NCBI GenBank assembly: GCA_016793885.1
Contig: JAEUHE010000042.1
Location: 248,001 to 312,000 of the forward strand
DNA from: Verrucomicrobiales bacterium
GTDB taxonomy: Bacteria; Verrucomicrobiota; Verrucomicrobiia; Limisphaerales; UBA11320
DNA length: 64,000 nt
Direction: 5' to 3'
Part shown: in pieces, positions 46,752-63,877 of the stretch
Layout of the letters: each line of letters opens with the position of its first letter
Position numbering within the stretch: the stretch's first letter is position 1
Program-made: the position numbers and the translations under genes
The notes under the pieces: generated by a model
What the model saw: the letters and a program-made list of their open reading frames with translations, nothing else
Told to the model about the DNA's origin: nothing
The model's database searches: none

Positions 46752-46913
46752 AGCTTACAGTAGGCTTGGCGCACACGGCGCACCATTAGGTGTTCTCCCC
46801 ATAGGAACTCAAATCGGGAAGGCACGACTAACCGTCGTCCGGTCAGTACCCCATGGTAGGTTGTGAACGATGCAGTAGGATCCCCCCGTTCCTTTCTTAA
46901 GCATCATAACTTT

Positions 46914-48332
46914 ATGGCTCTGGTTTTTGAACGAATCCAAACTGACGGCATCGCCGAACTTTCCTATTTAGTCGGCGACGATGCCGAAGGCGTCTGCGCC
47001 GTATTCGATCCTCGCCCGGACGTGGACTGCTATCTCGAGCTCGCGCGCGAGAAGCAGGTTTCTATCACCCACATCTTTGAAACGCACATCCATGCCGATC
47101 TGGTCAGCGGTGCGCGCGAACTGTGCGCGCGCGTCGAAACTGCCAAAATATTTCTCAGTCACGAGGGCGGCGCACGCTACGGCTTCGAACACGAAGAAAT
47201 CAAAGCCGGAGACACGTTCAGGCTCGGCTCCGTGGTGATTACCGTTCGGCACACCCCCGGCCACACGCCGGAGCATGTTGCTTATTCTTTGGCGGAGAAA
47301 GACCACCCTGATGCGCCGTGGGGGGTGCTTACGGGAGACTCACTGTTTGTCAGTTCCGCCGGGCGACCAGACCTCCTCGGCAACGCCCAAGCGACAAAGC
47401 TGGCCGAACAACAATTTCATACCCTGCGGGAATTTTACCTCCAGCTCACCGATGGGGTCATTATTTATCCGGCGCACGGTCATGGATCGCCGTGCGGCGC
47501 GGATATCGGCGACCGGCTAAGCAGCACGATTGGTTACGAGCGGCGCTTCAACCCCTTCCTGCAATTTCAGGATGCGGGACGCTTCACTGACTACGCACTC
47601 TCCACCGCGCCTCCCGTGCCGACTTACTATCCGAGGATGAAGAAGTTGAACGCGAAAGGGCCGGAAGTGCTAGGCAACCTGCCCAAAGTCCGTGGGCTAC
47701 CTCCCAAGTTCTTCAAGGAAGCCGTCGAGCACGAAGACAATGTGCTGATTGATACCCGCATGATGCTGGCGTTTGGCGGTGGCCATATCAAGGGTGCGCT
47801 GAGTATCGGTGGCTCGCCCATGCTATCCGTCTGGGCGGGTTGGCTGCTCGACGCGGGCAAGCCGATCCTTCTCGTTCTTGAGTCCGACGAAAAGCTCAAC
47901 GAAGTCCTCCGTTACTTCCTGCGCACGGGTTACACGAAGTTCGGCGGATATCTCGTAGGTGGAATGAAAGCATGGGATAACGCCGGTCTACCCTTGGATG
48001 ACGTCGGGCAAATGACGGTGCATGAAATCAAGAAGCGCGGGAAAAAATTGCAACTGCTCGACGTGCGCGCGCCGGACGAATGGCAAGGTGGTCACATCCC
48101 AAATGCGCGCCATATCTTCCTGGGCGATTTACGCGAAAAACTCGGCGAACTGGATAGGGGCCAACCCACGGCGGTGTACTGCGATAGCGGTTATCGGGCG
48201 AGCATCGCCACCAGCATTTTGAAACAGGAAGGATTTGGCTGTGTCTGCAACGTGCCCGGAAGCTGGCAAGCGTGGAAGAAAGCGGGATTCCCGGTGGCTG
48301 GGGTGATCGAAACGAAAAAGGAGTCAAATTGA
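46914..48332 (+). CDS. MBL-fold hydrolase with two rhodanese domains (persulfide dioxygenase-like)
   Basis: This cytoplasmic protein of about 472 residues starts MALVFERIQTDGIAELSYLV. The metallo-beta-lactamase domain (about 1-240) has THIHADLVSGARE, GHTPEHVAY, TGDSLFVSSAGRPDL and YPAHGHGSPCG, as in ETHE1/BLH-type persulfide dioxygenases. Two rhodanese domains follow. The first (about 260-350) has no active-site Cys (it reads VLESDEKLN), while the second has the active loop CDSGYRAS. Such proteins oxidise glutathione persulfide to sulfite or handle sulfane sulfur. ATG 46914 is chosen by family start; the frame opens at GTG 46863. Its TGA overlaps the TTG of the next gene. With the two YeeE genes it forms a sulfur uptake and oxidation operon. 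Confidence 0.92.
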   Translation: MALVFERIQTDGIAELSYLVGDDAEGVCAVFDPRPDVDCYLELAREKQVSITHIFETHIHADLVSGARELCARVETAKIFLSHEGGARYGFEHEEIKAGDTFRLGSVVITVRHTPGHTPEHVAYSLAEKDHPDAPWGVLTGDSLFVSSAGRPDLLGNAQATKLAEQQFHTLREFYLQLTDGVIIYPAHGHGSPCGADIGDRLSSTIGYERRFNPFLQFQDAGRFTDYALSTAPPVPTYYPRMKKLNAKGPEVLGNLPKVRGLPPKFFKEAVEHEDNVLIDTRMMLAFGGGHIKGALSIGGSPMLSVWAGWLLDAGKPILLVLESDEKLNEVLRYFLRTGYTKFGGYLVGGMKAWDNAGLPLDDVGQMTVHEIKKRGKKLQLLDVRAPDEWQGGHIPNARHIFLGDLREKLGELDRGQPTAVYCDSGYRASIATSILKQEGFGCVCNVPGSWQAWKKAGFPVAGVIETKKESN

Positions 48333-48931
48333 AGGCGCAAGGGAAAAGGCTTATCATCATGGGGGGCTTGGCCCTGCTCTCTATGGATACTGGGATCGCG
48401 GCGGACCAAAGCGTCAACTCGCTCGATTATCCCGGCGCGACATGGTCGCCCTATGTCGTGGGCGCAGGCATTGGCGTTCTCTCGTGGCTCACCTTCTATT
48501 TTTCAGACAAGCCTATCGGCGCGTCCTCCTTTTACGCCCAGGTGGCGGGCTTCATTGGAAAAATGTTTGCGAAACGTCATACCGAGTCGCTCGCCTACTT
48601 CAAAGACAACCCGCCCCGAGTGGGCTGGGAATTTGTTTTTGTCCTGTCCACCATCGTGGGGGGAGCGATTGCCGCCATCACCGGTGGCGAGTTCGTCAAC
48701 GAATGGCTTCCACCCATGTGGATTGACCGCTTTGGTGACAGCATTGCGCTGCGTGCAGGAGTCGCATTCGGAGGCGGTATTCTCATGGCCATTGGCGCTC
48801 GCCTCGCCGGAGGTTGCACCAGCGGGCATGGCATTAGCGGAACGATGCAGCTTAATGTCGCCTCTTGGATTTCTGTGATCTGCTTTTTCATTGGCGGCAT
48901 CGCCGTGGCCATGCCCCTCTTCAAACGTTAA
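48329..48931 (+). CDS. YeeE/YedE-family sulfur transporter, first half-protein
   Basis: This inner-membrane protein of about 200 residues has four to five helices. The family motif GARLAGGCTSGHGISGTMQL is near the C-terminus, with the conserved Cys thought to carry sulfur through the membrane in YeeE/TsuA thiosulfate transporters. The start is TTG 48329, overlapping the TGA of the rhodanese gene; AAGGAG five bases before it strongly supports this over ATG 48272, which lies inside the previous gene. Residues 9-27 look like a signal or first helix. A second half follows six bases later, so the pair probably forms one transporter unit. The substrate is likely thiosulfate or another sulfane sulfur compound. 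Confidence 0.88.
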   Translation: MKAQGKRLIIMGGLALLSMDTGIAADQSVNSLDYPGATWSPYVVGAGIGVLSWLTFYFSDKPIGASSFYAQVAGFIGKMFAKRHTESLAYFKDNPPRVGWEFVFVLSTIVGGAIAAITGGEFVNEWLPPMWIDRFGDSIALRAGVAFGGGILMAIGARLAGGCTSGHGISGTMQLNVASWISVICFFIGGIAVAMPLFKR

Positions 48932-48937
48932 GAAACC

Positions 48938-49531
48938 ATGATTGATCCCGGAAAAGCAGTTAAGCAATCCGCAGAAAGGCCCGCGCCGCAGGTCGCCACA
49001 GTGCGCACGCTGTTGGCTGGAGTGATGTTCGGCCTAGCTTTTGGCTTTCTCTTGCAGAAAGGGGGCGTCGGTAAATTCAATATTCTCATCGGCCAACTGT
49101 TGCTCCAGGACTGGACCGTCGCGAAAGTCATGCTGACCGCCATCGTGGTGGGCATGCTGGGCGTTTTCACGCTGCACCACTTCGCCAAGGTGAACCTGCA
49201 CCTCAAGCCGACCAAAATCGGCGCGAATATCATCGGCGGACTCCTCTTTGGCGCGGGCTTCGCGCTGATGGGCTATTGTCCCGGCACGGCTGCGGCGGCG
49301 CTGGGACAGGGAAACTGGGACGCGCTTTTCGGCATGGTCGGCTTAGTCGCCGGTTCGTGGATTTTTGCCGAGCTCTCAGCGTGGCTGCAAACGACCTTGG
49401 AGAAGTGGGGCGACCTTGGTAAGCTTCTTCTGCCGGATTTGCTGCACGTCCCGCGCGGAGTGTTCGTGGTCATTTTTGCGGTCCTGGTTACCGCGGGTTT
49501 GGTCGCATTGGAAAGAGCGTTTCCCCGATGA
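48938..49531 (+). CDS. YeeE/YedE-family sulfur transporter, second half-protein
   Basis: This 197-residue inner-membrane protein has about five helices: VRTLLAGVMFGLAFGFLL, MLTAIVVGMLGVFTL, IIGGLLFGAGFALMGYCPGTAAAALGQG, the helix after it, and a final hydrophobic end (VFVVIFAVLVTAGLVAL). The GYCPGT segment holds the conserved Cys of the YeeE/YedE family. Single-chain homologues such as TsuA carry both halves in one protein of about 350-400 residues, so this gene and the one before it look like a split version. It starts six bases after the stop of the first half, and both belong to the operon headed by the MBL-rhodanese gene. Confidence 0.9.
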   Translation: MIDPGKAVKQSAERPAPQVATVRTLLAGVMFGLAFGFLLQKGGVGKFNILIGQLLLQDWTVAKVMLTAIVVGMLGVFTLHHFAKVNLHLKPTKIGANIIGGLLFGAGFALMGYCPGTAAAALGQGNWDALFGMVGLVAGSWIFAELSAWLQTTLEKWGDLGKLLLPDLLHVPRGVFVVIFAVLVTAGLVALERAFPR

Positions 49532-53497: not shown

Positions 53498-54352
53498 ATG
53501 ACCGCCACCGTCCCTAGCAGGGTCCTGCGCCGTCAACTCGCGGAGGCGAGGATCCCGGAAGCACGTCTCGCGCTGGCCTGTTGTGAACTGTGCGCCCACC
53601 GGTGTCAGGTGAACCGACTGGCCAATGAACGGGGCCTTTGCCGGGTGGGGGCCGATTCCCGGGTCTTCTCCGCGCAGGTGGAGGTATCGGATGAGCGGGC
53701 GCTCGGACCGACCTTTGCCATCGCCTTCGCCGGTTGTGATCTCCGCTGCTCGTTCTGCATCACCGGCCGGGAGAGCTGGAATCCGCAGGTAGGCACCTCG
53801 TTCGCGCCAGCGGCTCTCGCCCAGCAGGCGGCCCGGGCCGTGGCCCAGGGGGCTCAGTCGATCATGATCCTAGGCGGAGAACCCACGGTGCACCTGCCCG
53901 CGGTGCTCGAGTTGGTCAGCCAACTTCCGGAGCAGGTGCGGCTCGTGTGGAAGACCAATGCCCATGGGACGGAACAGTCGCGCCGGCTGCTGGCGGGTTT
54001 GTTCGATCTCTGGCTCATCGATTTCAAGTTCGGCAATGACTGCTGTGCTGAGCGGCTCAGCGGTGCGTCCGATTACGTCGCCACCGTTGTCCAAAACCTC
54101 GTGTGGGCGCAGGAAGACAGCGGGGTGGTGGTCCGGCACGTGCTGATGCCAGGTCACCTGGAGTGTTGCTGGCGTCCGGTGGCGGAATGGCTTGCGGGAC
54201 ACCTTCCCGAGGTGTCGGTGAATCTCCGTTCGGGCTTCTGGGCCGGCTGGCAGGCCAGCCGACATCCCGAGCTGTGTCGTCCGTTCCTGCCGGGCGATGA
54301 AGCAGCGGCTCGCCGGCTCGCGGATGAACTTCACCTCCACCTCATCGACTAG
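53498..54352 (+). CDS. Radical SAM protein (PflA/PflX-like), first gene of the Ycf46-DUF1257-DUF2997 cluster
   Basis: This cytoplasmic protein of about 284 residues has the radical SAM motif Cys80/Cys84/Cys87 in FAGCDLRCSFCITG, and GGEPTVHLP for SAM binding. Before this core it has extra cysteines (Cys29/Cys32/Cys36 in CELCAHRCQVNR and Cys48 in GLCRV), as in the PflX-like group of activating-enzyme homologues, and these could hold a second cluster. Such proteins activate glycyl radical enzymes or modify proteins; no glycyl radical enzyme is in the window. The next gene starts four bases after its stop, so it is probably translated together with the cluster and may modify one of its members. 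ATG 53498 is chosen; the frame opens at GTG 53468. Confidence 0.85.
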   Translation: MTATVPSRVLRRQLAEARIPEARLALACCELCAHRCQVNRLANERGLCRVGADSRVFSAQVEVSDERALGPTFAIAFAGCDLRCSFCITGRESWNPQVGTSFAPAALAQQAARAVAQGAQSIMILGGEPTVHLPAVLELVSQLPEQVRLVWKTNAHGTEQSRRLLAGLFDLWLIDFKFGNDCCAERLSGASDYVATVVQNLVWAQEDSGVVVRHVLMPGHLECCWRPVAEWLAGHLPEVSVNLRSGFWAGWQASRHPELCRPFLPGDEAAARRLADELHLHLID

Positions 54353-54356
54353 AACT

Positions 54357-54611
54357 ATGCAAACCAATGGCTCTCCGCTCTCGTCCGATCCTCCGCTTCC
54401 CGAGCCGCCTTCGTTTCATTCCGAAATGCGGCTGCTGCCGGATGGCCGGGTGCTGGTCCACAATCTCACCCCGGCCTTCGCCCGGTTTCTCGACTCGCTG
54501 GGATTAGCTGATCTTCGTTCGTCTAGCGAGAAAACCGAAGGCGCCATTCTCACTGTCCGCGTGCATGTCGCCCCGGGCCTTCACTCTTCACACCCGGAGG
54601 CGCAGTCATGA
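54357..54611 (+). CDS. Small conserved-looking protein of the Ycf46 cluster
   Basis: This 84-residue protein is of unknown family. After a Pro/Ser-rich start it reads EMRLLPDGRVLVHNLTPAFARFLDSLG, a compact motif of two strands and a helix that looks like a genuine folded core. The rest is variable. No membrane segment or signal is present. It starts four bases behind the radical SAM gene, and its TGA overlaps the ATG of the AAA+ gene as ATGA, so it is very likely made at a fixed ratio with the ATPase. It could be a substrate or adaptor of the ATPase or of the radical SAM protein; this is inference from position only. Confidence 0.7.
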   Translation: MQTNGSPLSSDPPLPEPPSFHSEMRLLPDGRVLVHNLTPAFARFLDSLGLADLRSSSEKTEGAILTVRVHVAPGLHSSHPEAQS

Positions 54612-56173
54612 CCTTCGCCGAAGAAATCGAGACCCTCATCCGGGCCCGCTACCCCATCCTCTACATTGTCTCCAGCGAGGAAGCCCGGGTTACTCAACTC
54701 ATCATGGGGCTCGCTCAAAAGCGGCAGAAAAAGGTCTTCGAATGGACCTTCACCACCGGCATCGTCCCCGCTGGCACCAACATCCAGTCTCAGAAGAGCC
54801 GCAACGCGGCAACCAAGGACCCGCTGGCGGCCTTGGATCAGGTGATTGAGCAGGTCGAACCAGCCATTTTCGTGTTCAAGGACCTGCATCCCTTTCTGGC
54901 CAAGGGAAACCGCGCCGCCAACGCCGCCCCCATCCGAAAGCTCAAGGATGTCGCAGGCCATTTGAAGAGCAGCTACAAGACGATCATCCTGGTCTCGCCC
55001 ATCCAGGAAATCCCGGAGGAGTTGGAGAAGGAAATCACGGTCCTCAACCATCCGCTGCCTAGTCGGGAGGAACTCCAGGCGCTGCTCAATCGGATCGTTC
55101 AGGAGGTGAGTCAGCTTCGGCAGGTGACGATCGATTTGGATGGGCAGGGACGCGACCGTCTGCTGCAGGCGGCGCTGGGTTTGACGCTTGCCGAGGCGGA
55201 GAACGTCTTTGCCAAGATCATCGTCAAGGACGGACGGTTAAGCGGAGAAGATGTCGTGGAGGTTTTTGCTGAGAAGCAGCAGATCATCCGGAAGAGTGGC
55301 CTGCTGGAGTACTGCGCGTGCTCTGAGACGTTTGCCGAAATCGGGGGGCTGACGGTGATGAAGGAGTGGTTGAGAAAACGAGCGCGGGCCTTCACTGATG
55401 AAGCTCGAGCCTTCGGCCTCCCGGCACCCAAGGGCATCCTGCTGCTCGGGGTGCAGGGGTGTGGGAAGAGCCTGTGCGCGAAGGCCGTGGCCAGTCTGTG
55501 GCAGCAGCCTTTGTTGCGATTCGACATGGGACGCATGTTCGGTAGCCTGGTCGGATCCTCGGAAGAGAATGTTCGACGGGCCATTGCGGTGGCAGAGTCC
55601 GTGGCCCCGGCGGTGCTTTGGGTGGACGAAATCGATAAGGCCTTCGCCGGATCGCAGGGTTCCGGCGGGACGGACGGCGGGACCACCGCCCGGGTCTTCG
55701 GAACGTTCCTCACCTGGCTCTCGGAGAAAACTTCCCCGATCTTTGTGGTGGCCACCGCGAATGACATCTCCCAGCTTCCGCCCGAGCTTCTGCGCAAGGG
55801 GCGGTTGGATGAAATCTTTTTTGTGGACCTCCCGGCGGAGGCTGAACGGGAGGAGATTTTCCGCATTCATCTTGCGCGACGCCGTCGTGACCCGGCGGCG
55901 TTTGATCTCTCGGCGCTCGTCAGCGCTAGCCCCCAATTCAGCGGCGCCGAATGCGAGGAGGCCATCATCAGTGGGCTCTACGACGCCTATGCGGCGGGCC
56001 TTGAGTTGTCGACGGACCACATCGTGCAGGGCTTGTCACAGACGGTGCCCCTGGCACGTACCATGGATGAACAGATCAGTCGCCTGCGGGCTTGGACGGA
56101 AGGCCGTGCTCGCAACGCGAGCGTGCCTCGTCGGCCCGAAGCACCTTGCCCAATCCGTCGCATGGAACTGTAA
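54608..56173 (+). CDS. Ycf46-like AAA+ ATPase
   Basis: The 521-residue cytoplasmic protein opens [24 protein letters not shown], the typical Ycf46 start, with an N-terminal domain to about 230. The AAA+ module follows: Walker A in GVQGCGKSL (about 281-289), Walker B in [11 protein letters not shown] (337-347), sensor 1 Asn in VATAND (about 385), and the Arg-finger region in [15 protein letters not shown] (about 391-405), then a helical lid to about 475. All catalytic residues are present. Ycf46 proteins were named from chloroplast and cyanobacterial genomes; their substrate is not established. The ATG overlaps the previous stop. The next two genes (DUF1257, DUF2997) are the family's usual neighbours as I recall, so this is probably the motor of the system. 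Confidence 0.9.
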
Positions 56174-56250
56174 ACGCTCCGGCGTGAGCTGCGATCCTCG
56201 GCTCGGTCCAACCCAATGACACTCCTGAACCTCAACCCCTCACTTCCATT

Positions 56251-56715
56251 ATGAGCGCTGTCTGCATTCTCACTCCGGTGGTTATCGCCGCCTGGCCGGC
56301 TTTTTCGGCCGCAGTTGTCGCGGCCGCTTCGTCGCTCGGTTATACCGTGGTGGACCAGGCCCTGGACGCGTTGTCTACCCAGTCGTCCCCAGCCCGAGTG
56401 CAACTCGAGATCCCGCAGAGCGAGTTGGTCACGGATCGACTGGCTCGGGCTAAGGAATTAAGTGTGAGTCGGGATGGGGTGACCATCACCTTCTCGCGCG
56501 ATGCGCGTGGCCGCGCGGCGGTTTGTGTCAGCGGGGAAGGGCAATCCAAGCAGGAACTGCAAGCCCTGGGTTCGGAGTTGGCCGGGCGGGTCGTGCAACA
56601 GTACGTGTATCAAAGATTGAAGGAGGAGATGGCGGCCCGGCAGTTCCTGGTCGTTGAGGAGGAGACCGATGCCACAGCCGCCATCCGCCTCAAGGTGCGG
56701 CACTGGGAGAACTAA
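56251..56715 (+). CDS. DUF1257 (Ycf35-like) protein
   Basis: The 154-residue protein matches DUF1257, the family that includes cyanobacterial and plastid Ycf35, in its general layout. A first strand-helix unit (FSAAVVAAASSLGYTVVD) is followed by a middle with ITFSRDARGRAAVCVSG, a helix LAGRVVQQYVYQRLKEEMAARQF, and the ending LVVEEETDATAAIRLKVRHW. The N-terminus is unusually hydrophobic (VCILTPVVIAAWPAFSAAVVAAAS), which might be a false membrane signal. Function is unknown. It lies 77 bases behind the AAA+ gene and six before the DUF2997 gene. The call rests on pattern and neighbourhood, since sequence similarity to DUF1257 is moderate. Confidence 0.75.
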   Translation: MSAVCILTPVVIAAWPAFSAAVVAAASSLGYTVVDQALDALSTQSSPARVQLEIPQSELVTDRLARAKELSVSRDGVTITFSRDARGRAAVCVSGEGQSKQELQALGSELAGRVVQQYVYQRLKEEMAARQFLVVEEETDATAAIRLKVRHWEN

Positions 56716-56721
56716 CTTCAT

Positions 56722-56922
56722 ATGTCACAACGCGAATTCGACATCACGATCGGGCCGGACGGAAAAGTGGAGCTGCACGTCTCGGGCTATGAAGGCAAGG
56801 GTTGCCTGGAGGCGGTGCGCTTCTTCGAGCAAATCATCGGCCGGGTTCAGTCCCGCCAGGAAACGACTGAGTTCTACGGTCCGGAGGAGGAAGTTCGACA
56901 GCAGACGGACAATCATCACTGA
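56722..56922 (+). CDS. DUF2997 family protein
   Basis: The 66-residue protein reads REFDITIGPDGKVELHVSGY, then EGKGCLEAVRFFEQIIGRV and ETTEFYGPEE. This is the DUF2997 pattern of a two-strand unit (I-x-P-x-G-x-V-x-x-x-V-x-G) followed by a helix with Cys and a short acidic tail. No function is known for the family. It starts six bases after the DUF1257 gene, as is typical for this pair in other genomes as I recall, which suggests a direct partnership, possibly as a complex handled by the Ycf46-like ATPase. Confidence 0.88.
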   Translation: MSQREFDITIGPDGKVELHVSGYEGKGCLEAVRFFEQIIGRVQSRQETTEFYGPEEEVRQQTDNHH

Positions 56923-56950
56923 GCTCCTTTGCTCCCAACTTGGGATTTTC

Positions 56951-57832
56951 ATGCGCGCGCCTGAGTCCAGCTACTATCCGCCACGACGGAACGCCTGGCG
57001 CAGATGGGTGGGAAACCCCATCCGGGCCGCGTGGCGAGAGTGGTGGCGTCGTGGAGTTCCGGTTCACTCCGATTGGTCCTTCGGGAGCAGTCTTGGCGCG
57101 CTTCTCCTTCCCGGCTATGCCCTGGTCGGCCTGCGGCGTCCCTGGCTGCAACGCTTCTGGTGGTTGGCCTACGGCACCTGCTGGGCGGCCGCGTTGATCG
57201 GGTTGGGTTTCCTGGTGGGCGACCTAGCCGTTGGGTTGCTAGTGGCCTTGCACGCCAGTGCGTTGGTGGGCTGGCTCGGTCGCCATGGGGTCAACTTGCG
57301 CGACGGGCACGGGGTGATGGTGGTTGCAGCGGCCCTGACGATGGTGACCTTGACGGTTTATCTGCCCTTGGGCGGCGAGGTGATTCGCCGGATGTGGCTG
57401 CCGCTGGCCAGTCCGGAAGGCGTGATCGTGATCAATTGCACGGCTTCTCCGAAAGGCCTGGGTCGTGGCGACTTTGTGGCTTACACCGGTGCGAATCCTG
57501 GTACGTATGCCTACCAGGGCGGAGTCTATGTGGCGGATGGCCCAGGCTGCGGCCGAGTGCTGGCCGTCGCGGGTGATCACGTGGAGTTCAGTTCCGAGTT
57601 TGTCTGGATCAACGGGGAGCCCCAACCCCGGCTGCCAGACATGCCGACGGAAGGGCATTTGCGCATTCCCGCTGGCTCCTGGTTCGTCTGGCCTCGGCTG
57701 GTTCAGACCAACGGACGAGCCAACGCCGACATCATCGCCGCAGCTCTCCTACGGGTCGCTGTGGTACACGAATCCCGCTTTCTGGGCCGTCCCTTTGTCC
57801 GTTGGTTTGGGCGTCGGCAGCCATTGTCATGA
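56951..57832 (+). CDS. TraF/S26C signal-peptidase-like membrane protein, catalytic Lys apparently missing
   Basis: This protein of about 293 residues has three or more hydrophobic segments (around 45-60, 68-110 and 122-140), then a C-terminal domain that resembles the S26C/TraF peptidases of conjugation systems. NCTASPKGLGRGDFVAY puts Ser166 at the catalytic serine position, RVLAVAGDHVEF and WINGEPQP match the lysine-box region, and HESRFLGRPF resembles the final SRYxGPV motif. The residue before RVLAVAGD, where the general-base Lys is expected, is Gly201. The protein may therefore be inactive or use another base. ATG 56951 lies 28 bases behind the DUF2997 stop, and its own TGA overlaps the next ATG, which places it firmly in the cluster. 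Confidence 0.75.
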   Translation: MRAPESSYYPPRRNAWRRWVGNPIRAAWREWWRRGVPVHSDWSFGSSLGALLLPGYALVGLRRPWLQRFWWLAYGTCWAAALIGLGFLVGDLAVGLLVALHASALVGWLGRHGVNLRDGHGVMVVAAALTMVTLTVYLPLGGEVIRRMWLPLASPEGVIVINCTASPKGLGRGDFVAYTGANPGTYAYQGGVYVADGPGCGRVLAVAGDHVEFSSEFVWINGEPQPRLPDMPTEGHLRIPAGSWFVWPRLVQTNGRANADIIAAALLRVAVVHESRFLGRPFVRWFGRRQPLS

Positions 57833-58602
57833 GCCGCTTCATCAACCTCGAATTTGGTGATCTCTCGGAGGGCCGCTGCGAACCCGAGGAAACGGTCAAG
57901 GATGAGTCGTATTATCTTTCCGAGGCTCAGCAGCATTTTGAGAATGGCTGCTTCGAGCCGGCGCTTCGGGCCTATGCGCGGGTTCTGGAACACAATCCGC
58001 AAAACCCCGCCGCCTGGGCTGGTCAGGTGCGCATGTTGATCGAACTGGGCGAGGCTCATGAGGCGAGTTTGTGGTGTGACAAGGCGCTGGAGCGGTTCCC
58101 CCAAGAGGCCGACCTGCTGGCCGCCAAGGCTGTGGCACTCGCACGGATCGGGGAACTGGATGATGCCCTAGGGTTCTCGGATGCTTCGTTCGAAGGATCC
58201 GGCGACTCGGCCTACCTCTGGCTCGCTCGGGCCGAAGTACTCCTGGCTCGGAAGGAACGGCGCGCCGCGTTTTGCTTCGAGCGTTCGGGGCAGGTGGCCA
58301 ACCACACCTGGGTGACCCAATGGATGGCCTCGCGCCTCCGCCTGGCGTATCGACAACCGGCGTTGGCCCTCCAGCATGCCCGCTCGGCCATGGAGTTGGG
58401 GCCGACGGTTTTCCTGGTCTGGCTCCAGTTGGGGCTTTGTCAGCAAGCCCTCGGAATGGTGACGCCCGCCGGCACTTCCTTCACCCGCGCCCTGGAGCTC
58501 AACCCCGATTGTTTGGAGGCGCAGCGGGCGTTGAAACTCACTCAGCAAATGGACGCCTGGACCCAATTGCGACTCTGGCTGCGCCGACTGCTCTCCTCAT
58601 GA
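57829..58602 (+). CDS. Tetratricopeptide-repeat protein of the Ycf46 cluster
   Basis: This cytoplasmic protein of about 257 residues has an acidic N-terminus (FGDLSEGRCEPEE) and about five to six TPR units: LSEAQQHFENGCFEPALRAY, VLEHNPQNPAAWAGQVRMLI, CDKALERFPQEADLLAAKAV, ARAEVLLARKERRAAFCFE and FTRALELNPDCLEAQRALK. TPR superhelices hold protein complexes together, so it probably bridges cluster members. No signal peptide or membrane helix is visible. The ATG overlaps the stop of the TraF-like gene and its own stop overlaps the ATG of the PilT-like gene (ATGA both times), so these three proteins are translationally coupled. Confidence 0.85.
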   Translation: MSRFINLEFGDLSEGRCEPEETVKDESYYLSEAQQHFENGCFEPALRAYARVLEHNPQNPAAWAGQVRMLIELGEAHEASLWCDKALERFPQEADLLAAKAVALARIGELDDALGFSDASFEGSGDSAYLWLARAEVLLARKERRAAFCFERSGQVANHTWVTQWMASRLRLAYRQPALALQHARSAMELGPTVFLVWLQLGLCQQALGMVTPAGTSFTRALELNPDCLEAQRALKLTQQMDAWTQLRLWLRRLLSS

Positions 58603-59657
58603 ACCACCCCCGACTCGATTTGCTCTTGGCTCAAGCGACGGAACTGGGTGCATCGGATCTGCACCTGATTGCCGGTGTCCCGCCCGCCTTCCGGGTCTTC
58701 GGAGAGATCCGTTTTGCCGACGGGGAAGCGTTGAGCCAAACCGAGAACTTCGAAATGGTTCACGCACTCCTCAGCGAGCGCCAACGGGAAACTCTGGACA
58801 ACGAATGGGAGCTTTGCATCTCGCTCCTGCATCCGGCCGCCGGCCGGGTCCGTGTGACGCTTTATCGGCGCAACGGGTATCCGGAATTGAGCCTCCGGTT
58901 CTGCGGCCGTGAAGTGCCGTCGCGTGAGGAGCTGGGTCTGCCCGAAAAATTGGACGAGCTGGCGCGGCGTCCCAACGGCTTGATGCTCATCACCGGGCCG
59001 ACCGGGGCGGGCAAGACCACCACGCTCAACTACCTGGTGAACCTCATCAACCAGGAGCGCCGCTGCAAAATCGTCACCATCGAGGATCCCGTCGAGTTTG
59101 TGCATGAAAACAAGCGCGCCATCGTCGTTCAGCAGGAAGTGTTGACCGACACCCATTCCTTCCACCGCGCCCTCATTCATGTGCTCCGCCAGGATCCGGA
59201 CGTCATTGTGGTCGGGGAGATGAGGGATCATGAAGCCATTGAGACTGCACTTGCTGCGGCGGAGACTGGTCACCTCGTGCTGGCCACCATGCACGCGCCG
59301 AATGTGACCCATGCCCTGGAGCGGATCGTGGGCATCTTCGAGGGCAGCGCCCAGCGGCAGATCGTCATGCAATTGGCCAACACGCTCCGGGGTGTGATGG
59401 CCCAGGACCTTCTGCCGTCCGCCGACCGCTGTCGGCGGGTGCTGGCCTGCGAACTCCTGGTGGTGAACAGCGCGATTCGTAACCTGATTCGGGAAGGAAA
59501 CCTCCACCAGATTGAGAACGTGGTGCAAACCGGCGCGAAGGACGGGATGGTCTTGATGGACGACTGGCTCGAGGATCTCTACTGTAAATGCGCCATCAGC
59601 TACGACACGGCCGTGACGCGGGCTCGCGATCCTCAACGTTTCATGAAGAAGGAATGA
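58599..59657 (+). CDS. PilT-like type IV pilus retraction-type ATPase
   Basis: This 352-residue hexameric-type ATPase of the PilT/GspE superfamily has the N-terminal domain start LDLLLAQATELGASDLHLIAG, Walker A GPTGAGKTTT (133-142), the Asp box in TIEDPVEFVHE (about 160-170), Walker B in DVIVVGEMRDHE (201-212), and the His box in GHLVLATMHAPN (224-235). All ATPase motifs are intact. PilT normally drives pilus retraction together with PilB/PilC, but no pilin, secretin or platform gene is near. Its overlap with the TPR gene and its position as last gene of the Ycf46 cluster suggest a non-pilus role, for example as a second motor of this system; this is inferred. It reads cleanly to the stop at 59657. 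Confidence 0.93.
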   Translation: MNHPRLDLLLAQATELGASDLHLIAGVPPAFRVFGEIRFADGEALSQTENFEMVHALLSERQRETLDNEWELCISLLHPAAGRVRVTLYRRNGYPELSLRFCGREVPSREELGLPEKLDELARRPNGLMLITGPTGAGKTTTLNYLVNLINQERRCKIVTIEDPVEFVHENKRAIVVQQEVLTDTHSFHRALIHVLRQDPDVIVVGEMRDHEAIETALAAAETGHLVLATMHAPNVTHALERIVGIFEGSAQRQIVMQLANTLRGVMAQDLLPSADRCRRVLACELLVVNSAIRNLIREGNLHQIENVVQTGAKDGMVLMDDWLEDLYCKCAISYDTAVTRARDPQRFMKKE

Positions 59658-60298: not shown

Positions 60299-63200
60299 TC
60301 AGCGCCCCCGCTCCTCCACCGCCCGGACCCAAGCCTTTCTCAACTCTTCCCGTGTCAGGGGCACCACCGCTCCGGAGGGTTCCTTGCGGTGGGCCGCCAA
60401 CAATTCGGCCTTCTGCCGTGCGTCGACCAGGGAGCCCACTTCCGGACCGAGATCCCAAACCCGCGTGGTCCCGTCGTCACTGCTGCTTAACAACTGCGAG
60501 CCATCCGCGGAAAAGTGAATCCACTGGACAGCTCGCGCATGCCGCAAGGGCGGGGTGACCGCGTCACCCGTGGCGGTGTCCCAAACCCGCGCCGTGCCAT
60601 CCTGACTGGCCGTCGCCAACAGCGTGCCATCGGGACTGAATACGACTCGCGTGATCTTGCCTTGATGCCCCAACTCCGGCACGAGCTGACGTCCAGTCTG
60701 TACCTCCCAAATCCGTACGGAGTTGTCCTCGCTGCCCGTGGCGATTCGACGGCCGTCCGGACTAAACGTGGCCTGAGTCACGCCATCCCGATGCCCCCGG
60801 AACTCGTGGATCCTTTGTCCGGAACTCACATCGAACAGAACGGCTGAACGAGCCTCATAGCTGTAATCAGAGTTCGCCGCCAGAATCTGCTGGCCGTTCG
60901 GGCTGAAGTGAGCTTCCCAGATGAAGCCGCCGGCGCTCATCGGTAGAGCGGCCGGTTTCCCGTCACCGCTGTGGAAGACGCGCACCTTTCCATCCGCACA
61001 GGCCGTCAGGAAGAAATCGCCATCCGGACTGAACTCGCAATCGTCGAGCCAATCCGGATGCGGGATCGGCGGGCTCAACGGTTTGCCCGTGTTTGCATCC
61101 CACACGCGGGCGGCGCTCAGCTGGGGATCAGCCGAGAGGGTGATCGTTACCAGCTTGCTCCCGTCTTTACCAAAGGCAGCACGGCGAACGGCGACTTCGT
61201 GCGCGAGGGGAGCAAACTTCTCCCTCCGGGTTCGAAGGTCGAAGACGCGCAGAAACCGATCCGCACCCGCGACCGCGAGGGCTTGGCCGGTAGGATCCTG
61301 AGCGACATGCAGCACGTCTGATCCGCCGGCTAGGAGCTGTCCCACCGACTGTCCGTTCGTGACGTCCCAGAGGGTCAGCTTGCCCCGCGCGGTGGCGGTG
61401 TAGGCATGGGAGGTTCCCCGGATCCAATCCGAATGCACCATCGGATCCCTCTCCGACCACTCCCGAAGGGCGGTGGCGCCCGTGCGCTCCCAGACTCGGA
61501 CGATGCCCAGCTTGTCCCCTGTGACCAGGCGGAGCTCCTCCGGGCTGAGCGAGGCCGAGAAGACGAAGGCGCTGTGTTGCAGGGCTGGCCAGAGCGATTC
61601 ACCCCCGAAATCGCGGGGGTGTACGGTGTGGTTGAGCTCGGGCAGCAAGACCAGGCCGCGGCCAAGATTCAACCCTTCCTGTGCTCCATCGAGCTCAGTT
61701 TCTCCCGCGACTCCAAAGGGCTCACCGGTGCGGGGATTCCACAGGCGGAGCTTGCCATTGTAACCTACAGTGAAAGCGTAGCGTCCGTCGCCCCCGAAAC
61801 CGGCATGTTGCAAGCGGGGATGTCCGGCATGCGTCAGAACCGGGGAGAGGGCTTGACCGGTCTGGGCACTCCAGATTCGTGCTTCGCCAGCGTGGCAGGC
61901 GGTGATCACCTCGTGGCCATCTGGACTAAACCATCCCCCCGCCCAATCGTCCTGCGTGCCGCCCGGCAACTGCCATGGGCCGAAGACCGGACGAAAGCTT
62001 GCGACGTCAAACAGTTGGGCATAGCCTCCATGGCCGACCAGTAGGATGCGGTCCCCTTGAGGACTGAAGGTGGCATGCAGGATCTTTTGCGGAAGCGTCA
62101 GTGCGGGGCCGATGGATTTCCCGCCGCGCACCTCGCGGACTTGGGCTTTTGATCCCTGGGCGGAAATCACCCAGCGGGAGTCCGGAGTGAAAGAAATTCG
62201 CGCCGTCGCGGTGCGCTTCAATCGGCTCTCGTTCTCCGGGAACGGCCCCGCCAGCAGCCGTCCCGTTGCGGTTTCCCAAACCCGGGCCGTGCCATCCGAG
62301 CAGGTGGTCGCGATGGACAACCCATCTGGACTGAAGTAGGCGGTGGACACCGCTGCTGGATGTTTCAGAGGGGGGAGTGTCGGCTGTCCGGTGATTCCCT
62401 CCCATACCTGGAGCACGCCGTCCTCACCCGCGCTCAAAATCCGCCGTCCGTCGGGGCTGAATTGAGTCATGTTGACGGATCCCTCGTGGAACATGAGTTG
62501 TCCCAACCGGGGTGCCTGACGGAATCCTTCGGCGATTCGACGGCGGTGGATGAGTTCCTCCGCAGGGCGTCCGGTGTCCAAACTCAGAGCGTCCAGGAAG
62601 TGCAGCACCGCAGTGGTGGGATCACCCTGCAGCGTGAGCCGATTCCCTTCAGCCACGTTGAGCCGAACGACCTGCCGGCGGTTCTTCTCTGCTTCGCTGG
62701 CGATGCGCATACCCAGGACGGCCGAGATAGCGACGATGACCAGCGAGCCAATAGCGACCGCCAGACCGAACGCGGCCGTCCACGGATGTCGCCGGGTCCA
62801 CTTCACTAGAATCTCGGGCGTGCTGCTCGGTCGGGCCTGGATGGGCTCGTGGCGCAGCCAACGTTCGAGGTCTTCCGCCAGCTGGAGCGCCCTGGTATAG
62901 CGGCGCTGCGGTTCCTTCTCGAGACACTTCAAACAGATGGTCTCCAAGTCCGCATCGATGACCGGATTGACCACCCGAGGCCGGATTGGTTCCTTCTGGA
63001 CCACCTGCTGAAGTGTTTCGAAGGCGGTATCCCCGAGAAAAGGCGGACTTCCGGTCATTAACTCGTAGAGCACGGCCCCCAGGCTGTAGGTGTCCGATGC
63101 CGTGGTGAGCTGACGGGATTTCCCTTCGGCCTGCTCGGGCGACATGTAGGCCGGAGTACCAAGAACCGCGTCGGACAGTGTCAGATTCGATTCACCTCCC

Positions 63201-63877
63201 TCGACCTTAGCCAGTCCGAAGTCGGTGACCTGAGGTTGCCCCTGTGCGTCGATGAGGATGTTGGCGGGCTTGAGATCGCGATGGAGGATCCCGTGCTCAT
63301 GAGCGTAATGAACAGCCCGTGCCACCGTGGCGATCAAGTTGGCGGCTTCGGTCAGGCTGAAGGGGAGAGTCCGCTGAGCGAGCCGTTCACCCAAGGTGGA
63401 GCCTTCGATCAGCTTCATGCTGAAGAACGGCATGCCCTCTCGTTCGCCCACTTCGTAGATGGGGACGATGTGCGGATGATCCAGCCGGGCGGCCGCTTCT
63501 GCCTCGGCGCGGAAGCGTCGAAGATCGACTTCGCGGGCCAGCTTGCCACCGAGGATCATTTTTAAAGCCACCCGCCGATTCAAACTCACTTGGCGGGCTT
63601 CATACACAATGCCCATGCCACCCCGGGCGCGCGGGCGGAGTTCCGCGTAGTCTCCAAAGGAGTCCAGCTTGGGGGCGGGACCAGCGACCAGCGAGTCGAG
63701 GTCCAAGCTATCGGCGGAGGAGGTCGCCGGGTCCGGATCACTGGACTCATCCGCGAGCAAGGCGACCACCAGACACCGGGGGCAGAGCCCCTCGGTGGCG
63801 CTTTCTGCGATCAGGCGCAGGCATTTAGGACAATGCATGGCAGGCAGCTTTGTCATGACTTGCGGAGTCGGAGGCAT
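60299..63877 (-). CDS. Membrane serine/threonine protein kinase with WD40 propellers
   Basis: This protein of about 1192 residues has an N-terminal zinc-ribbon-like CPKC...CPRC. A Hanks-type kinase domain follows (about 75-345): a Gly-rich loop in [14 protein letters not shown], Lys in [31 protein letters not shown] and [13 protein letters not shown], so it should be active. A transmembrane helix ([19 protein letters not shown], about 372-390) comes next, then about fourteen WD40 repeats ([21 protein letters not shown] and similar), likely two propellers. If the helix spans the membrane, the propellers lie outside and the kinase inside. Proteins of this layout are common in Planctomycetota and Verrucomicrobiota and often sit next to an ECF sigma gene, as here. 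The start among Met1, Met8 and Met14 is uncertain. Confidence 0.93.

Follow-up and report, generated by a model that had tools for sequence, protein, structure and literature searches.

A conserved gene cluster of Verrucomicrobiota that joins Ycf35-like and DUF2997 proteins to AAA+ and PilT-family ATPases looks like an undescribed cellular machine

Ycf35 (DUF1257) and DUF2997 are orphan protein families that, to our knowledge, have no established biochemical role. Here, we analyse a cluster of eight genes at positions 53498–59657 of a 64,000-nt window (the whole stretch of DNA that was analysed, from contig JAEUHE010000042.1 of a Verrucomicrobiales bacterium). The cluster encodes, in order, a radical S-adenosylmethionine enzyme (rSAM), an orphan small protein, an AAA+ ATPase, a DUF1257-like (Ycf35-like) protein, a DUF2997 protein, a membrane protein with the S26 signal-peptidase fold, a TPR protein and a PilT-family ATPase. 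Judged by its gene order, its pattern of loss and its relatives on phages and plasmids, the cluster looks like an undescribed cellular machine.

Genes and proteins of the cluster

An open reading frame (ORF) check recovered all eight genes on the forward strand, at the coordinates given by an earlier note that had been made from this DNA alone. Three junctions are ATGA overlaps (at 54608, 57829 and 58599) and the remaining gaps span 4, 77, 6 and 28 bases, bearing out that note's description of eight co-directional genes with three such overlaps and other gaps of 4–77 bases. A scan for promoters and terminators at the cluster gave no clear excess over shuffled sequences, and an Rfam search gave no match.

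The first gene (53498–54352) encodes the rSAM (284 amino acids), which belongs to the Pfam Radical_SAM superfamily (PF04055, 46.3 bits against a cut-off of 29.5). The cysteines of its AdoMet motif CxxxCxxC (C80, C84 and C87) are invariant among 53 sequences, in which an N-terminal four-cysteine motif (C29, C32, C36 and C48) and a CC pair are nearly so. The enzyme reaches none of the NCBIfam equivalog cut-offs for PflA, NrdG, AmmeMemoRadiSam or the maturases of ribosomally synthesized and post-translationally modified peptides (RiPPs); its best score is 39.6 bits against a required 231.8. The second gene (54357–54611) encodes an 84-amino-acid protein with the conserved core ELLILPDGRILAHNLTP and no match in Pfam, NCBIfam, PHROGs or PADLOC; in most full loci it sits between the rSAM and AAA genes. 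Its β-PDG-β start resembles that of DUF2997, but homology to that family was rejected (hhalign probability 7%).

The AAA+ ATPase (54608–56173, 521 amino acids) combines an N-terminal domain of unassigned fold with one Cdc48-like AAA domain, and matches Pfam AAA (98 bits) and, over its full length, PHROG 8638 (529 bits). Its Walker A (GVQGCGKS), Walker B (VLWVDEID), sensor 1 and arginine finger are near-invariant in 90 sequences, a full motif set by which we assign it to the classical clade of AAA+ ATPases. The closest relatives by sequence in the PDB are Cdc48/p97. The protein shares the AAA domain and complete motifs with these and with proteasomal AAA+ ATPases, but differs from Cdc48/p97 in its N-terminal domain, in having one clear AAA domain and in partners that are not Cdc48 cofactors. 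Its comparison with cyanobacterial proteins covered plasmid relatives (46% identical), and neither Pfam nor NCBIfam yielded a model for Ycf46. PADLOC found no full component set of a known anti-phage system, only weak partial matches such as IetA, pVip and mad8.

The DUF1257-like protein (56251–56715, 154 amino acids) scores 14.9 bits against PF06868, below the Pfam cut-off of 22.2, whereas 22 of 29 aligned family members match (best E 2.1e-7); the DUF1257 label of the earlier note thus has its support in the relatives, the window protein by itself falling short of the cut-off. Its C-terminal profile aligns with that of DUF1257 proteins from mobile-type loci over 42 columns (hhalign E 2e-4), and a PF06868 search of the window's own genome returned nothing above threshold. 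The top viral Foldseek match to a model of the protein, A0A7S5REL3 (147 amino acids, E 2e-3, probability 1.0), may be a phage member of DUF1257 but, being unnamed, was not counted as evidence. The DUF2997 label is borne out directly: the 66-amino-acid product of 56722–56922 matches PF11211 with 52.7 bits against a gathering cut-off of 24.1. Its Cys28 is conserved in 46 of 46 and in 25 of 25 sequences in two alignments, its C-terminal tail T-x-E-[FY]-Y is also conserved, and a cysteine stands at the corresponding position in those phage and plasmid DUF2997 proteins that were read.

The next gene (56951–57832) encodes a 293-amino-acid protein with, by hydropathy, about three transmembrane segments followed by an S26 fold with the RV..LPGD...NG signature. 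Peptidase_S26 matches the window protein weakly and is matched by 13 of 17 aligned relatives (best E 1.7e-8); the protein that the earlier note called TraF-like is thus a relative of Peptidase_S26. Type I signal peptidases and TraF share the RV..LPGD and NG signature, but no serine or lysine is conserved at the dyad positions among 44 homologues of the window protein, and we therefore predict that it is a catalytically dead relative of these peptidases.

The TPR protein (57829–58602, 257 amino acids; Pfam TPR) has an N-terminal SRF..LE that is invariant in 52 homologues. The PilT-family ATPase (58599–59657, 352 amino acids) belongs to TIGR01420 (379.9 bits against a cut-off of 319.1) and has complete Walker A and B motifs and His box, which, with the motif conservation seen in the rSAM and the AAA+ protein, agrees with the earlier report of complete catalytic motifs in all three. 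Like PilT/PilU retraction ATPases it carries an AIRNLIRE-like, retraction-type motif (AIRNLIREG-type), kept in most of its orthologues; in contrast to them it is encoded with AAA and TPR genes rather than beside pilus genes, and forms a distinct orthologue group whose members are 66–75% identical to one another and at most 46% identical to the next PilTs. The window genome encodes six PilT-family proteins over the cut-off, of which the other five fall outside this group, together with about nine PilB/GspE-like and about ten T2SSF proteins. The earlier remark on a PilT 'without pilus genes' is thus right for the locus and wrong for the genome.

Conservation and modular loss

When a genome collection was searched for the AAA protein, 80 loci were recovered, with identities of 59–80%. 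The order rSAM, 84-amino-acid protein, AAA, DUF1257, DUF2997, S26, TPR and PilT recurs in tens of them, including other Verrucomicrobiota and records titled Phycisphaerae/Phycisphaerales and Planctomycetota; in Kiritimatiellota it is seen in part, up to a contig end. Because the order is kept in tens of other genomes, we regard the eight ORFs as real genes in a non-random arrangement. Linkage of the rSAM, S26, TPR and PilT genes to those for AAA, DUF1257 and DUF2997, which had been proposed as a test of a single system, thus holds in relatives and in other classes. Forty-five AAA-anchored loci had at least 2 kb of upstream and at least 4.5 kb of downstream sequence: 21 were full, 7 were AAA-TPR-PilT, 5 were rSAM-AAA, 1 was AAA-TPR and 11 held the AAA gene alone, many of these last with a sigma factor gene.

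The AAA and PilT genes are also retained together. Among 113 genomes of the class, a PilT orthologue (at least 68% identity, next best 46%) occurs in eight and an AAA orthologue (at least 71%) in nine, and all eight PilT genomes have the AAA (Fisher p 2e-11, phylogeny not corrected for). Five of these eight pairs lie on one contig and three on separate contigs, in at least two of the three with the AAA gene at a contig start. Where the AAA locus is without some of its local partners, 21 of 23 genomes still have the PilT orthologue, and in AAA-alone and rSAM-AAA genomes it mostly lies at another place. Four of these genomes have a split operon, with rSAM-84aa-AAA apart from DUF1257-DUF2997-S26-TPR-PilT (or the part of it shown by the contigs).

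The remaining genes follow a different pattern. Five of these genomes have a window-type DUF2997, four of them together with an intact rSAM, which is absent from all of the other 18. Among the latter, G448 retains a truncated rSAM together with an S26 remnant beside TPR-PilT, and therefore seems to be losing the set as a whole. The genomes in these counts are mostly draft metagenome-assembled genomes (MAGs), unevenly sampled. The loss patterns thus define two sub-modules: AAA-TPR-PilT, which persists, and rSAM-84aa-DUF1257-DUF2997-S26, whose members tend to come and go together. Co-occurrence of AAA and PilT when separated, and losses that are modular, speak for the single system that the earlier note had proposed, and by these genomic measures the AAA+ ATPase is the hub of the cluster.

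A survey anchored on DUF2997, made in genomes of the class and phylum independently of the AAA query, found eight window-type loci and about seventeen of a second type, mostly with a distant AAA. The second-type loci of the Planctomycetes–Verrucomicrobia–Chlamydiae (PVC) group often read DUF3150-DUF1257-DUF2997-small protein-AAA (L110, L113, L114, L116 and L118–L129) and look like parts of mobile elements.

In relatives, the cluster is preceded by an extracytoplasmic function (ECF) sigma factor gene and a gene for a conserved small protein (s75), in some also by one for a rhomboid-fold protein, and in some is followed, downstream of PilT, by a gene for a membrane TPR protein (tprM). In the one rhomboid-like example read, GIGG stands at the expected GxSG position. 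A T2SSF (PilC/GspF-like) gene lies beside the ECF sigma gene in 3 of 52 sigma-bearing loci, all of one clade (L111, L063 and L112), at a distance of 46 bases. The window locus has neither sigma nor s75 nor tprM, and the same genome carries these three together elsewhere (G000:C193, about 49.3 kb). Because they stand together there without the eight genes, the most economical explanation is that the cluster left an ancestral array in one piece.

Elsewhere in the window, a probable sulphur-handling operon, consisting of a gene for a metallo-β-lactamase/rhodanese protein followed by two sulphur-transport (PF04143) genes, lies at 46863–49531, and a large protein in which a Ser/Thr protein kinase is joined to WD40 repeats is encoded directly downstream of the cluster on the opposite strand (60299–63877).

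A wider core on phages, plasmids and in cyanobacteria

AAA-DUF1257-DUF2997 is a more widespread core, present in phages, plasmids and mobile elements, and cyanobacteria have the two DUFs with a 4Fe-4S protein. Full-length relatives of the AAA protein occur on plasmids and in phages. DUF2997 and DUF1257 (or a DUF1257-sized protein) lie beside the AAA in two phages, Pseudomonas phage SM1 and Rhizobium phage L338C, and on plasmids of Paenibacillus, Paenarthrobacter, Planktothrix and Geminocystis. In Rhodobacter phage RcTiptonus, the AAA occurs with a DUF2997 whose neighbour is an unassigned 126-amino-acid protein. Among the best 80 AAA loci of IMG/VR, 46 have both DUFs with non-iterated profiles and 47 with iterated ones, usually with about 1–2 kb of other genes between the AAA and the DUFs (L173–L252). 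PilT, TPR and S26 are absent from those of the 80 that have both DUFs. This viral set is an undescribed phage module.

The plasmid and phage sets of Paenibacillus pPPM1a, Paenarthrobacter pYJN5-1, SM1 and L338C thus share with the window cluster an AAA (about 31–44% identical) and DUFs close by, but have no TPR, PilT or S26-fold partner; we found no description of their function in the literature searched. Along with the AAA, the Paenibacillus and Paenarthrobacter plasmids also encode radical SAM proteins, which are short and NrdG-like (Fer4_12). On Treponema succinifaciens plasmid pTRESU01 (L138), an AAA relative (50%) is flanked by the gene for a 4Fe-4S protein and by one that is phage-baseplate-V-like, which suggests that it serves a contractile injection-like system.

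In Synechocystis, duf2997 and ycf35 form an operon ('cluster g') with fed7, which encodes a [4Fe-4S] ferredoxin that is not needed for photoautotrophic growth and is tied to oxidative and metal stress (PMC4284462). This operon shares with the window cluster the adjacent DUF2997 and DUF1257 genes and the presence of an Fe-S protein alongside them, but has no AAA, TPR, PilT or S26, and its Fe-S protein is a ferredoxin rather than an rSAM. The co-loss of the rSAM with the two DUFs, together with an Fe-S partner that recurs on plasmids, in a few viral loci and in cyanobacteria (PMC4284462), supports indirectly a tie between the rSAM and DUF1257/DUF2997. As a separate observation, DUF2997-like and DUF1257-like genes overlap in Prochlorococcus phage P-SSM7 (L137, 168914–169466), with psbA about 0.2 kb downstream and a ferredoxin gene nearby; this plastid-type pair is a candidate for photosynthesis-related phage genes.

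Among described systems, the vWA-MoxR ternary conflict systems (Kaur et al. 2020, PMC7159879) likewise combine an AAA protein with small proteins, and one of their subtypes includes a radical SAM enzyme, but family scans found neither vWA nor MoxR among the eight window proteins, and the text of that paper mentions neither DUF1257 nor DUF2997. Our search for literature joining DUF1257 or DUF2997 to an AAA or rSAM protein, in which subscription journals and preprints mostly lay outside the search, returned the cyanobacterial cluster as its sole match. Each enzyme here comes from a known superfamily; the novelty is the assembly, whose closest known relative, the cyanobacterial operon, is just as unexplained.

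A proposed machine and its alternatives

We consider it highly probable that the eight genes form one functional system. Tentatively, and with less than even confidence, we propose a specific mechanism with an AAA hub, an Fe-S input and a dedicated PilT output. The AAA would act as the remodeller, with DUF1257 and DUF2997 as small partners, either adaptors or clients. The rSAM, whose place a different Fe-S protein would take in other lineages, would modify or read out the DUF2997 cysteine, which, being conserved, would be the obvious site of such action; assembly of the machine could thereby come to depend on redox or iron state. The predicted dead S26-fold protein may anchor DUF1257, DUF2997 and the Fe-S input at the membrane, and the AAA, through the TPR protein, may remodel or load the dedicated PilT. 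PilT would be the mechanical output, most likely by driving retraction in a type IV pilus or pseudopilus system of the cell, the simplest output in a genome with six PilT-family proteins and abundant genes for pili and type II secretion systems (T2SS). The broader generalization, in which the core is a widespread remodelling machine of phages, plasmids, cyanobacteria/plastids and bacteria, under Fe-S/rSAM control at the DUF2997 cysteine, and the PVC version, wired to an S26 anchor, TPR and PilT, is a redox-gated mechanical membrane machine, is speculative, and we hold it to be unlikely.

Several findings weigh against this picture. The 11 AAA loci out of 45 that hold the AAA gene alone lack any local partner, and one genome (G460) has a window-type DUF2997 with no close rSAM orthologue. 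A radical SAM protein is found in 5 of the 80 viral AAA loci and most core-bearing viral loci have none nearby, so that local partnership with an rSAM is not universal. The pilus platform gene T2SSF is near the cluster in one small clade only. AlphaFold models of the DUF1257-like and DUF2997 proteins are of low confidence (mean predicted local distance difference test score 63 each), and Foldseek gave no reliable fold match for the DUF1257 model in the PDB. A rival account gives the genes no joint function and sees them as old neighbours held by operon economy whose co-occurrence reflects shared lineages: the evidence is genomic throughout, housekeeping clusters may persist together for other reasons and MAG sampling is uneven. 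However, genes are co-lost in modules and co-retained when unlinked, the eight seem to have been displaced jointly, the arrangement is conserved in different classes and in records titled Planctomycetota, and start and stop codons overlap at three junctions, all of which makes this account improbable.

Other explanations accept a system and differ on what it does. PilT may have been repurposed as a non-pilus second hexameric motor, acting on an S26-fold membrane complex or an unknown filament. Its distinct orthologue group (66–75% identity within, at most 46% to other PilTs), its place away from pilus genes except for the T2SSF of one clade, and its retention with AAA and TPR after the loss of all else are consistent with this; yet most members retain the retraction-type motif, the genome has pilus and T2SS genes for it to serve, and the AAA-TPR-PilT variant has no S26-fold partner, so that we rate repurposing as somewhat unlikely. 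The core may instead be a phage or mobile module that serves replication, defence or counter-defence there, and that PVC bacteria have domesticated so that it merely shares an operon with TPR and PilT; this would fit its presence in 46 of 80 viral loci, on plasmids and in mobile-type loci, and the weak relationship of the AAA domain to IetA of an anti-phage system. Mere domestication would not predict that the PVC version keeps its synteny and is inherited along with PilT even where the two are unlinked, and the set matches no PADLOC system; we think this quite unlikely. Very improbable, in our view, is that the rSAM makes a modified peptide, with DUF2997 or the 84-amino-acid protein as a RiPP-like precursor, AAA and the S26-fold protein processing or exporting it and PilT energizing export. 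The rSAM does adjoin small conserved proteins with a conserved cysteine and is co-lost with DUF1257, DUF2997 and S26, but the S26-fold protein lacks a protease dyad, conservation in DUF2997 spans most of the protein and follows no leader/core layout, the rSAM is above the cut-off of no RiPP maturase family, and the cluster encodes neither a transporter nor an active peptidase.

The reading of the eight genes as one system built around the AAA+ ATPase links the orphan families Ycf35/DUF1257 and DUF2997 to an AAA hub, an rSAM, a predicted dead S26 fold and a PilT, and the same core is found on phages and plasmids. The question of what these orphan families do becomes one that can be tested in separate parts: the binding partners of the AAA+ ATPase, the modification of DUF2997 Cys28 and what the dedicated PilT moves.

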